Assembly: GCA_029062885.1 (NCBI GenBank) | Contig: JAIDPH010000225.1 | Coordinates: 1 to 49,488 of the forward strand | Origin: Lachnospiraceae bacterium | GTDB lineage: Bacteria; Bacillota; Clostridia; Lachnospirales; Lachnospiraceae | Length of the DNA stretch: 49,488 nucleotides | Direction: 5' to 3' | Part shown: in pieces, positions 7,931-10,674 of the stretch | Layout of the letters: each line of letters starts with the position of its first letter | Numbering within the stretch: the first letter of the stretch is position 1 | Translations under genes and position numbers: made by a program | The notes under the pieces: generated by a model | Database searches by the model: none | What the model was told of the DNA's origin: nothing | Seen by the model: only the letters and a program-made list of their open reading frames with translations

Positions 7931-9688
7931 CTATTTCTCCTGTTCTTTTCTGTACAATTCCATAAAATAGCTGTTATTTACCAGTAATTCCTCAAAAGTT
8001 CCATTACCGACGATTTTTCCGTTTCTGAATACTATGATTCGGTCAAATCCGATGATTGAAGATAAGCTATGGGCAATGGCGATTACTGTGGCATTATGCA
8101 CCTGTTCTAAGACATTTTTCATGACGATGCTTTCCGTTACATTATCCAATGCTGATGTTGCTTCATCCAAAACAACTATCTCGGAATCATCAAACCACAG
8201 TCTGGCTAATGCCAACCGCTGCTTTTCTCCACCGGATAAGCAGGTTCCTTTTTCACCGATTCTTGTATCTACTCCGTTATCCAATGACGAAATCATTGGC
8301 AGCAGCTGCGTGGCTTTAAGGCTCTCATGAATATCCGTATCCGCAACTTCTTTATCAAATATCAGATTTTCTCTGATTGTGCCATCAAATACAGGTGCAT
8401 CCTGCGATAAATAAGATACTTTTTCATACAGTGATTCCAATGAGAATCTTTTTAGCGGTTTATCATCAAATAGGATATCGCCCTCATCGTACTTGAGTAA
8501 TCCGATTAATATTTTTACCAATGTCGATTTTCCGGAACCTGATTCACCGACAAACGCTATTTTTTCACCCTTTCTAATAGTCAGGCTGACAGAGTTAAGT
8601 ACTTTTCTATTTTCGTCAGAAAATTTTTCACCGGATTTTTTTTCATTCTTATAGGAGATTACACTGTCCGGCGACAATTTTTCATAGCAAAATGTCAAAT
8701 TTTCAACACAAATTTTATTTAAGAGTGTATCAAAAGTAATGCCTTCCTTAAGCTGCATATCCTCTTTTAAGTCTAACAGCTCCGTAAATCGCAGCCACGC
8801 TGTTTTGTTCAACTTGTACTGAACATAAATGACATTAAATATTGCAATTGGGGTATATGCATTATCAATTAACGTGATTAATGCTACTACAGAACCAACG
8901 GACAAATGACTGTTTTTCCATGCATAGGCCAGAATCTCGATATCCATGCAGGCGACTAACAATGCAAAAATAGTGAAAAATGCTTCATGTATCATAGTCA
9001 TTTTTACTTTTGACGATACTATGATTCGCTTGGCTATTGATGCTTTTTTTACCTCATTTGAGAATTGATTTTTCATGCGAAAAACAGGCATTTCCATAAA
9101 ACCGCGCACAAGAAAATGGTTTAGTTCCTCTTCATTGGTTAATATTTTTTCCTTTATCCGGTATAATCCCTTAAGCAATATGTTGGTTACTATAAATACG
9201 ATGATATATCCTGTCATGAGAAAATAAGTTATATTTCTGTCTATTTTCCAAATAAAATATAAACTGAACAGGATTGTCGGAACCAAACTTCTGACAACAC
9301 AGAACCAAAAGTCATAAAGAACGCCTTTTCCTGCATTAGCGCCATTTTCAATCTGCTGCACTAATTTTCCAGTTCCCAGCTTTTGGTATTCAGAATAGTC
9401 CATTCTGCCTATTTTCTGTAATGCCAGTAATTTGAAATCCAGATAAATCTCATTTTCAAGTCTGGCTGACGGGTACTCATCCAAATAGTTCATTACATAA
9501 TTTACAATAAGAACAACACCATAAAACAGAATTCCGTAAATCATTATTGTCCTATCCGTCAATCCATCTACAATCTTTTGAAAACAGTCAGCTTTATAAT
9601 TTGACATAAATGCATTGAATAATCCTATTACCAGATATACAATAACCCAATTTCTGTTATTTTTTAAGATTTCTTTCATATAGCGCAT
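7931..9688 (-). CDS. ABC exporter half-transporter, fused membrane and ATPase domains
   Basis: A 585-residue type IV ABC exporter. Residues about 15-300 contain six membrane helices; the ATPase domain follows. Walker A is GESGSGKST (about residue 380), the signature is LSGGEKQRLALARL (about 480), Walker B is EIVVLDEATSALD (about 500) and the H-loop is AIAHSLS. The Q-loop region is YLSQDAPVFDG. It would act as a homodimer or with an unseen partner. Substrate unknown; multidrug or peptide export is typical. The start at 9688 has AAGGAG seven bases upstream. This ribosome binding site belongs to an RNA element with alternative pairings (9689-9804) preceded by a short reading frame, so translation is probably regulated. 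Confidence 0.92.
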   Translation of the reverse strand: MRYMKEILKNNRNWVIVYLVIGLFNAFMSNYKADCFQKIVDGLTDRTIMIYGILFYGVVLIVNYVMNYLDEYPSARLENEIYLDFKLLALQKIGRMDYSEYQKLGTGKLVQQIENGANAGKGVLYDFWFCVVRSLVPTILFSLYFIWKIDRNITYFLMTGYIIVFIVTNILLKGLYRIKEKILTNEEELNHFLVRGFMEMPVFRMKNQFSNEVKKASIAKRIIVSSKVKMTMIHEAFFTIFALLVACMDIEILAYAWKNSHLSVGSVVALITLIDNAYTPIAIFNVIYVQYKLNKTAWLRFTELLDLKEDMQLKEGITFDTLLNKICVENLTFCYEKLSPDSVISYKNEKKSGEKFSDENRKVLNSVSLTIRKGEKIAFVGESGSGKSTLVKILIGLLKYDEGDILFDDKPLKRFSLESLYEKVSYLSQDAPVFDGTIRENLIFDKEVADTDIHESLKATQLLPMISSLDNGVDTRIGEKGTCLSGGEKQRLALARLWFDDSEIVVLDEATSALDNVTESIVMKNVLEQVHNATVIAIAHSLSSIIGFDRIIVFRNGKIVGNGTFEELLVNNSYFMELYRKEQEK

Positions 9689-9804
9689 AACTGTACTCCT
9701 TTTCTAATGTTAATATTCCCATAGAATCAGTACAGTTGTGACTGTCAGCAAGTTTATCTTATCCTCAGCACAATCTGCTAACAGTTTATATCAACTGTAC
9801 TGAG
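9689..9804 (-). promoter_or_regulatory. Candidate RNA switch controlling ABC exporter translation
   Basis: Read on the minus strand, segment 1 (9804-9792, CTCAGTACAGTTG), segment 2 (9785-9776), segment 3 (9772-9764, TGTGCTGAG), segment 4 (9750-9741), segment 5 (9738-9728, CAACTGTACTG) and segment 6 (9697-9689, AGTACAGTT, between the GGAG and the ATG). Segments 1 and 5 pair over 11 bases and 2 with 4 over 10, giving a long hairpin that leaves the ribosome binding site free. Segment 1 can instead pair with 3 over 9 bases, and segment 5 can pair with 6 over 9 bases, covering the start. Segment 1 lies inside the leader reading frame. The pairings are read directly; the mechanism is inference. Confidence 0.55.
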
Positions 9805-9827
9805 TAGTTATCTCGGATATATTTCAT
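9786..9827 (-). CDS. Putative 13-residue leader peptide upstream of the ABC exporter
   Basis: ATG at 9827 opens a 13-codon frame, MKYIRDNYSVQLI, ending in TAA at 9788-9786. A GGAGGTG ribosome binding site (9844-9838) lies ten bases upstream. Codons 8-12 overlie RNA segment 1 of the proposed switch, and the stop is immediately before segment 2. A ribosome here would therefore alter the downstream fold. The peptide sequence matches no leader I know. Confidence 0.5.
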   Translation of the reverse strand: MKYIRDNYSVQLI

Positions 9828-9867
9828 AAAATGAATTCACCTCCAGCCAAATGCCTCATTTTTTATG

Positions 9868-9910
9868 AATATTGTACCATTAATGATCAGATAAAGCCAG
9901 TGTATTGAAA
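9868..9910 (-). repeat. Promoter block, copy 2 (shared with 7255-7297)
   Basis: This copy sits upstream of the ABC exporter leader. On the minus strand TACAAT (9876-9871) would start a transcript near 9863, giving a leader of about 175 bases before the exporter start. The 20-base core identical with copy 1 is at 9891-9910. Confidence 0.7.
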
Positions 9911-9922
9911 AGCTATAGGGAA

Positions 9923-9950
9923 TTGACAATTTACGCGGTCATGTTACAAT
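9923..9950 (+). promoter_or_regulatory. Promoter for the hypB operon
   Basis: Consensus TTGACA (9923-9928), a 16-base spacer and TACAAT (9945-9950), 52 bases before the hypB start. It is back to back with the exporter promoter block. Confidence 0.65.
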
Positions 9951-10002
9951 GATTTAAGAGAGTATAAAACCGCAAAAAATGTTGATTTGACAGGAGAATG
10001 CC

Positions 10003-10674
10003 ATGAAAGAAGTGAGAGTTTTAGAAATCAAGCAGAGTGTTTTTGCAGACAATGATATGCAGGCGGATAAGCTGCGTCAGGAACTTAAAGAAAAAGGCGT
10101 GTTTTTACTGAATCTGATGTCTTCCCCCGGTTCCGGCAAGACAACTACGCTGATGCGTACCATTGATGCACTGAAGGGGAAAATAAAGATCGGCGTTATG
10201 GAAGCGGATATTGACTCGGATGTGGATGCTAAGACAATTGCCCTCTCGGGAGCAAAGGTTATCCAACTTCATACGGGCGGAATGTGTCATTTGGATGCAG
10301 AGATGACCAGACAGGGACTTGAAGGATTAGACACGAAAGACGTGGAACTGGCTATTCTGGAAAACGTAGGAAATCTGGTCTGTCCGGCGGAATTTGATAC
10401 GGGAGCTTCTAAAAATGCCATGATCCTATCCGTACCGGAAGGAGACGACAAGCCGTTAAAGTACCCGCTGATGTTTTCTATCTGCGATGTGGTGCTTATA
10501 AATAAAATCGATGTCATGCCATACTTTGACTTTGATATGGATAAGTGCAGGGAATATATACACATGCGCAATCCCAAGGCAAAGATCATTCCAATCTGTG
10601 CTAAGACCGGAGAAGGAATAGAAGAGTGGACGAAATGGCTGTCAGATGAAGTAGTAAACTGGAAAGAAGCATAA
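10003..10674 (+). CDS. hypB: HypB, nickel-insertion GTPase
   Basis: A 223-residue SIMIBI-class GTPase that drives nickel delivery during maturation of nickel enzymes, classically [NiFe]-hydrogenase. The P-loop SPGSGKTTT is at residues 41-49; the switch region MEADIDSDVDA follows; NKID is the guanine-binding motif. The metal site in the G domain is present: C95 and H96 (GGMCH) and C127 (LVCPAEF). It lacks the N-terminal His-rich storage tail and the CCxxC-type motif found in some HypB proteins. Ribosome binding site AGGAG. It is the first gene of a four-gene operon that includes hypA but no hydrogenase or hypCDEF. Confidence 0.95.
   Translation: MKEVRVLEIKQSVFADNDMQADKLRQELKEKGVFLLNLMSSPGSGKTTTLMRTIDALKGKIKIGVMEADIDSDVDAKTIALSGAKVIQLHTGGMCHLDAEMTRQGLEGLDTKDVELAILENVGNLVCPAEFDTGASKNAMILSVPEGDDKPLKYPLMFSICDVVLINKIDVMPYFDFDMDKCREYIHMRNPKAKIIPICAKTGEGIEEWTKWLSDEVVNWKEA

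Follow-up and report, generated by a model that had tools for sequence, protein, structure and literature searches.

A short leader frame and a set of complementary RNA segments precede the gene of an ABC half-exporter in the genome of a Lachnospiraceae bacterium, and the same element was found in at least 127 loci of Clostridia, Bacilli and Lactiplantibacillus plasmids, a number in which some genomes count twice, once per collection. With moderate confidence we regard it as a translation attenuator that would depend on the position of the ribosome and would be opened by a pause at a CGA codon of the leader. The rare codon that selection maintains lies where, according to the RNA model, a held ribosome opens the gene; the two findings were reached independently of each other. 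The element is not restricted to exporter genes. If this reading is true, a common attenuator without an Rfam family marks genes that probably protect gut anaerobes from one class of translation inhibitors; the inhibitor could be found with a simple reporter, the function of an uncharacterised exporter and methyltransferase could be predicted, and the speed at a single codon could be a sensed quantity.

Leader, segments and helices

The window is the whole stretch of 49,488 nucleotides that was analysed (contig JAIDPH010000225.1). Read on the minus strand, the exporter mRNA begins with a leader of 13 codons and a series of complementary segments (Table 1).

Table 1 Features of the element and the exporter gene in the window
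Feature	Position	Strand	Remark
Likely -10 box TACAAT	9871..9876	minus	TGG just before, i.e. extended -10; read from the sequence
Leader Shine-Dalgarno GGAGGTG	9838..9844	minus	read from the sequence
Leader ORF MKYIRDNYSVQLI, including stop	9786..9827	minus	ATG 9827 to TAA 9786, 13 sense codons
Leader codon 5 CGA, codon -4 relative to the Ser codon	9813..9815	minus	proposed A-site pause codon
Segment 1 CTCAGTACAGTTG, leader codons 8-12	9792..9804	minus	partner segment 2 or segment 3
Segment 1' CTGTTAGCA	9776..9784	minus	partner 2'; covarying helix
Segment 2 TGTGCTGAG	9764..9772	minus	partner segment 1
Segment 2' TGCTGACAG	9742..9750	minus	partner 1'
Segment 3 CAACTGTACTG	9728..9738	minus	partner segment 1 or segment 4
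Exporter Shine-Dalgarno GGAG and segment 4 AGTACAGTT	9689..9699	minus	GGAG 9699-9696 overlaps segment 4 (9697-9689), which adjoins ATG 9688
ABC half-exporter, 585 aa, membrane part and ATPase	7931..9688	minus	proposed controlled gene

The original prediction had placed here a 13-codon frame with its own GGAGGTG, a repeated segment and one complement to both copies; all were found at the given positions, with CAGTACAGTTG of segment 1 at 9802-9792 of the minus strand. Two further pairings, segment 2 with segment 1 and 1' with 2', were absent from that prediction. The extended -10 context reads TGGTACAAT (box 9876-9871) and the expected transcript start is at about 9864; a simple promoter scan gave no site at 9871..9876 on the minus strand. 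Within 75 nt upstream an exact TATAAT was present in 29 of 66 leaders versus 3 of 64 distal stretches. No terminator-like site was detected on the minus strand between 9600 and 10100. On the plus strand, a divergent gene at 10003 has in front of it, at 9923-9950, a strong promoter-like site (TTGACA-16-TACAAT with TG); by eye, the gene product resembles the hydrogenase maturation factor HypB. The exporter had a Pfam match to ABC_tran above the cut-off and a sub-threshold match to ABC_membrane, and its top solved sequence relatives were drug and lipid transporters of the ABCB type. PADLOC gave domain-level matches only, the best to mad3 (E 7.8e-25) in the ATPase part of the exporter.

The 204-nt stretch folded better than all of 200 shuffles (z -3.62). 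A chance origin of the segments was rejected: none of 5000 dinucleotide shuffles of this stretch contained an 11-nt perfect complement with a 9-nt repeat of its first arm after it, and the segments recur in other genera. Conservation is the stronger evidence for the element than these shuffle statistics. In Rfam 15, positions 9000-10600 of the window matched no family at the gathering score, two matches near E 0.9 being far below theirs and outside the element. Among ten related loci the only Rfam match was a glycine riboswitch in L091 (2711-2797), outside the element and near a copy that precedes a methyltransferase gene.

The pairing scheme has two states, OFF with the helices 1:2 and 3:4 and ON with 1:3 and 1':2'. 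The first 92 loci yielded 82 foldable and, at 0.92 by a string-similarity measure, 67 non-redundant leaders; 66 of them entered the helix alignment, L037 being excluded for its length. Pairing was present in 99.7 % of the cells of helix 1:2, a value partly selected by the search pattern, which fixes part of segments 1, 2, 3 and 1' and leaves 2', 4 and the CGA codon outside. One pair of this helix changed on both sides (36 GC, 30 AU), a pair number reached by 431 of 500 shuffles, and its 30 two-sided cells exceeded every shuffle. The helices 1:3 and 1':2' together were paired in 93.6 % of the cells, with two-sided changes in 12 of 21 pairs and 145 two-sided cells versus a mean of 41 after shuffling, a count that none of 500 shuffles reached, and a shift by one to three columns lowered pairing to 19-52 %. 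The 3:4 helix, which is predicted to hide the Shine-Dalgarno and start of the gene, was paired in 84.6 % of its cells; one position was unpaired in 29 of 66 leaders, and two-sided changes occurred in 4 of 9 pairs with 52 cells versus 26 in shuffles, the number of two-sided pairs being not above shuffles (153 of 500 reach it).

Many of the two-sided cells are inherited and few are independent. Two-sided steps, counted by parsimony over 25 chosen pairs, numbered 8 for the methyltransferases (tree of 27 tips) and 2 for the exporters (tree of 25 tips); some of these steps end unpaired, and one-sided steps were commoner, many of them passing through G-U. Full two-sided replacements were present in two leaders found later, CAGTGCAATTGAC with GTCAATTGCACTG in L193 and CGATACA with TGTATCG in L194. 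The original prediction named as refuting results homologues without the leader, a lack of compensatory changes and a transcript start downstream of 9786; none of these was seen among close relatives. The leader was present in all eight genomes (of 98, own included) that had an exporter match of E<=1e-100, pairs did change on both sides, and the exact TATAAT boxes are enriched upstream of the leader instead. For more distant homologues, the approximately 300 nt upstream of a 38.5 % identical Melissococcus exporter and of a 51 % identical Fusobacterium methyltransferase contained no leader.

Ribosome position and the CGA codon

Leaders were folded with a ribosome placed codon by codon, modelled as a footprint of 31 nt around the P site in which no base could pair. 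Over 66 leaders the average P(3:4) was 0.33 without a ribosome, 0.41-0.45 with the P site at codons -8 to -6, lowest with 0.11 at -5, which places codon -4 in the A site, 0.42 at -4, 0.89-0.93 from -3 to +1 and 0.84 at +2 and +3. The minimum was located at -5 in 55 of the 66 leaders and elsewhere in 11; it was also at -5 in the group means of the ABC, methyltransferase and radical-SAM leaders, and the single MFS leader tested had no 3:4 pairing at any position. The leader of the window gave a P(3:4) of 0.43 without a ribosome, 0.33, 0.62 and 0.82 with the P site at -8, -7 and -6, 0.05 once codon 5 (CGA) had reached the A site, and 0.96-1.0 for the codons after it. A held-out set came from 40 further pattern loci examined after the model was made; 11 were dropped by the segment-1 filter used before and 29 kept, of which 17 had leaders less than 0.92 similar to earlier ones. 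These 17 reproduced the profile with 0.33-0.40 at -8 to -6, 0.17 at -5, 0.38 at -4 and 0.88-0.95 beyond, the minimum being at -5 in 11 and elsewhere in 6.

The ON state spans a window of 4 nt, in which the footprint ends on the C of CTC or at most 3 nt past it. This position results because CTC is needed for 1:2 and hardly for 1:3. If CGA occupies the A site, this window is matched by leading edges of +14 to +17, counted from the P-site codon. Shuffling of the interior led to a flat profile; a cost difference above 3 kcal/mol was observed in 54 of 67 real and 6 of 268 shuffled leaders, and 7 of the 67 were below 2 kcal/mol. The fold without a ribosome is not closed (mean P(3:4) 0.33), hence the OFF state must rely on frequent translation of the leader or on folding during transcription.

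The check proposed with the original prediction, a fold with the leader masked, was carried out with ribosome footprints, and the predicted closure of the start site does depend on the ribosome position. With a ribosome on segment 1, segment 3 became free to close the exporter start, as claimed (in silico, mean P(3:4) of 0.89-0.93 with the P site three codons before to one after the Ser codon, 66 leaders). That an early stall would open the exporter was borne out in part: a ribosome held upstream lets 1:3 form in the model, but early stalling is only half-effective, and the distinct ON position has codon -4, mostly CGA, in the A site. The proposed erm-like logic likewise keeps its core in silico, with four helices rather than two and lacking the 2:3 opener of erm.

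The leader ORF, its Shine-Dalgarno sequence and its frame are conserved across the loci. A leader start picked by Shine-Dalgarno sequence and start codon led to the SVQ frame in 92 of 92 loci, and the called leaders had 7-26 codons (67 leaders). The distance from CGA to segment 1 is fixed; the farthest start supported by a Shine-Dalgarno sequence lies 2-8 codons before CGA. Codon -4 was CGA in 61 of the 67 non-redundant leaders, with a possible bias in the loci found with model R1, which was built on nine leaders all having CGA. Leaders found by a pattern that does not touch this codon had CGA in 38 of 41 non-redundant cases, held-out leaders in 15 of 17, and all kept held-out loci in 25 of 29. 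No other arginine codon was present at this position, and only one of the other 33 arginine codons in the 67 leaders was CGA; the background of CGA among arginine codons is 6.0 % in the window and 7.6 % in the loci. The exceptions were CCA, GCA, TTC, CAT, CTA and TTA (Leu, Phe, His, Pro, Ala) among the 67, and CTA, TTC (twice) and the stop codon TGA among the held-out 29. By eye, codon -4 was not CGA in L188, L189 and L193; the plasmid leaders are among the exceptions. Because of the TGA, the leader of L165 (JAUNGB010000076.1) would encode only MIK, and its stop codon would occupy the A site where CGA otherwise stands; this is a natural variant or a decayed copy. Conservation of CGA merely for a pairing with the TCG of segment 1 was considered and is unlikely, CGA being present in 28 of 30 TCA leaders and 33 of 37 TCG leaders.

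In the proposed mechanism, free-running ribosomes would occupy segment 1 or leave it to pair with segment 2, and segment 3 would pair with segment 4, hiding the Shine-Dalgarno sequence and start codon of the exporter. A ribosome held with leader codon 5 (CGA) in the A site would cover with its leading edge CTC, the first bases of segment 1; segment 1 would then capture segment 3, 1' would pair with 2', and the exporter start would be open. A ribosome further along would block 1:3 as well and return the element to OFF. As cause of the pause we expect a translation inhibitor that makes the CGA step, a weak wobble decoding by tRNA-Arg(ICG), rate-limiting, an inhibitor of the decoding step being the most direct guess. 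The controlled genes, exporter, methyltransferase, radical-SAM enzyme and MFS transporter, would be expected to counter that inhibitor. Published tests disagree on the slowness of CGA: in the part available of one report, a his-leader assay had CGA read more slowly than CGU and CGC (PMC4046918), and in that of another, four consecutive CGA codons were no hindrance to translation in B. subtilis (PMC10454642). Only tentatively, as possible rather than probable, we extend the reading to a codon-specific attenuator in which impaired I34-A decoding by tRNA-Arg(ICG) at the A-site CGA, through a putative decoding inhibitor, would activate whichever of four mutually unrelated countermeasure genes follows, in gut Clostridia, in Bacilli and on Lactobacillus plasmids.

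Known attenuators and alternative readings

As proposed, the element would act in the manner of the drug-inducible leaders erm, bmrB, cplR and toiL, yet it lacks one defining feature of each of the first three. With the erm attenuators (ermC, ermB, others) it shares a predicted leader peptide, a predicted hairpin hiding the ribosome binding site and a fold that in the model is chosen by the ribosome position. In ermC a stall on segment 1 leads to the 2:3 pairing that frees segment 4; here, however, segments 2 and 3 share one sense, which precludes their pairing; the opening helix is 1:3, and in the model the gene start is closed by a ribosome on segment 1. The bmrB leader of BmrCD in Bacillus subtilis also combines a small leader ORF and alternative stem-loops before an ABC exporter, is induced by ribosome-targeting drugs and has rare leader codons that matter for the basal level, as given in the sections available of the report (PMC4191407). 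In those sections BmrB has 53 amino acids and the leader an intrinsic terminator, whereas the minus strand here revealed no terminator-like site, the switch is predicted to act on the Shine-Dalgarno sequence, and four gene families follow. According to the accessible parts of two further reports (PMC10201436; PMC12121999), the start-codon-stall uORFs of cplR, vmlR and vga(A) are likewise short Gram-positive uORFs with sequestration of the Shine-Dalgarno sequence, induced by drugs that hold early ribosomes; the element differs by the lowest mean P(3:4) at the internal P site -5 and by a varying distance from start to switch. The toiL uORF of topAI in E. coli resembles it in having one uORF and a hairpin hiding the Shine-Dalgarno sequence, with a possible response to several drug classes, but in the part available it is proposed to open on a stall anywhere (PMC12121999), whereas in the model the element opens best in a 4-nt window and closes after it. 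From amino acid attenuators the element differs in its single CGA in place of a run of codons and in controlled genes that match no arginine genes. Among the papers listed by searches of an open-access library, no title or beginning of an abstract described the element, which may be described elsewhere. In a survey of structured RNAs that contain uORFs (PMC8632094), the available portion of the main text mentions neither an ABC transporter nor a methyltransferase nor Lachnospiraceae.

A general sensor of early stalls, of the vmlR, cplR or toiL sort, would need no codon-specific pause: pleuromutilins, lincosamides or tetracyclines would hold ribosomes at or near the start and leave segment 1 free, and CGA would set the basal level by slowing ribosomes, like the rare codons of bmrB. 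Several observations agree with it. The mean P(3:4) is just 0.41-0.45 at -8 to -6 versus 0.84-0.93 from -3 on; start-codon stalling has been reported or proposed for retapamulin, lincomycin and tetracycline leaders (available parts of PMC12121999; PMC10201436); and the bmrB rare codons raised basal expression and left the fold induction by lincomycin unaffected (PMC4191407, in the part available). We nevertheless hold it to be rather unlikely, since ribosomes held at the start leave the gene no less closed than no ribosome does (0.33) and codon -4 in the A site lowers closure below that value, since the distance from start to segment varies and that from CGA is fixed, and since conservation of CGA at the codon level would be unnecessary. 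An attenuator for a shortage of arginine or of tRNA-Arg(ICG), as in arginine starvation or after cleavage of that tRNA, would agree with the strict use of one arginine codon where a held ribosome opens the gene, but the codon is single instead of in a run, several leaders are without it, and by family matches no arginine gene is among the four families. This renders a shortage sensor very improbable.

Arrest by the nascent peptide as in erm, either a macrolide stop at K/R-X-K/R or an arrest at the SVQL end, appears improbable. The K/R-X-K/R motif needs an arginine in the A site. Some leaders read MRMR, MKKR or MRTR, and the A-site arginine suits this motif, which is named in the available part of PMC12121999, yet K/R-X-R ends at codon -4 in only 10 of 67 leaders, the SVQ end varies (SIQ, PVQ, SVR, SEQ, LVQ) while the element is kept, and in the model the gene start is closed when the ribosome sits on SVQL. 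Hardly any credence is given to a direct sensing of a protein or small ligand by the RNA with an incidental leader translation. The strong conservation of the RNA and some leader deviations, including the stop codon in place of CGA in L165, would suit it; the chosen starts, however, share one frame in 92 of 92 loci with segment 1 inside the ORF, the fold responds to the ribosome position, and no Rfam family matched at the gathering score. The pause at CGA remains the reading that we prefer.

Downstream genes and occurrence

A translated search revealed within 1.5 kb downstream a gene of one of four families in 125 of the 127 listed loci, the contigs of the other two ending first: 55 ABC exporters, 60 SAM methyltransferases, 8 radical-SAM enzymes and 2 MFS transporters. 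The first 98 loci contributed 43 ABC exporters, 43 class I SAM methyltransferases, 8 radical-SAM enzymes and 2 MFS transporters, two contigs ending after 198 and 69 nt; the held-out 29 loci contributed 12 exporters and 17 methyltransferases. Among the 67 leaders, 28 of 30 of the CTCA type precede an exporter and at least 28 of 37 of the CTCG type, by a strict motif, a methyltransferase. The methyltransferases belong to a single family, with 47-55 % identity to the first of 16 sequences; the one member tested had a Methyltransf_11 match, and a search of the PDB gave no sequence match at E<=0.001. A structure model (pLDDT 93.4) had as best Foldseek row RlmA(I), a 23S rRNA methyltransferase (18 % identity, TM 0.55). 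VIA-align placed RlmA(I) only 26th among many other methyltransferases of like Z, so the fold does not settle between methylation of rRNA and of small molecules. The four gene families would fit a protection against a small molecule.

Other genera, families and classes also carry the leader frame and the segments. BLAST of the leader against 98 genomes (own included) matched 12, two of them by chance (G082 and G090, dropped as being without segments); the eight genomes with the strong exporter match were all among these, and a further leader, L011, precedes a methyltransferase gene. A sequence-only model, after weak rows were dropped, found the element in 25 of 392 genomes of the order and 8 of 391 of the class, with the own genome, G098 and G177 in both. 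Dropped at the order level were 8 matches of E>=0.002 in 7 genomes (5 inspected and without segments, 3 without a locus on the E-value alone), and at the class level 4 matches of E>=0.001, all inspected. A structure model matched 6 of 398 genomes of the phylum, own and G098 included; a search of the 46 genomes in the class of G827 yielded G827 alone as a new carrier.

A DNA pattern scan of named genomes, which gives at least 120 matches and is no census, led to at least 63 real loci among the first 80 listed, 17 being dropped (16 by the segment-1 filter, L136 by eye), and to 29 of 40 in the further set. The hosts include Lachnospiraceae, Clostridium, Tissierella, Lacrimispora, Maledivibacter, Lutispora, Ruminiclostridium, Sporolactobacillus laevolacticus, Enterococcus alcedinis and others. 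Decay was also observed: L007 (G009 contig 50, 5779-5911) has an intact leader and lacks the Shine-Dalgarno and start region of the exporter, and in L048 (G515 contig 119) the methyltransferase frame after the leader is broken by stops.

In phage and plasmid DNA, blastn yielded no relatives, and a pattern scan of viral contigs gave three matches, none with segment 1. A protein search in plasmids gave 53 matches, of which 4 were examined; both Lactiplantibacillus methyltransferases among these have the element upstream, one on a plasmid of Lactiplantibacillus pentosus typed as mobilizable and one on a plasmid of L. plantarum typed as conjugative. In these plasmid loci, L188 (2397-2463) and L189, the element and the methyltransferase gene adjoin a replication initiator gene, and the leader of L189 reads by eye MEIKYDNCSVQL, with TAC at the CGA position.
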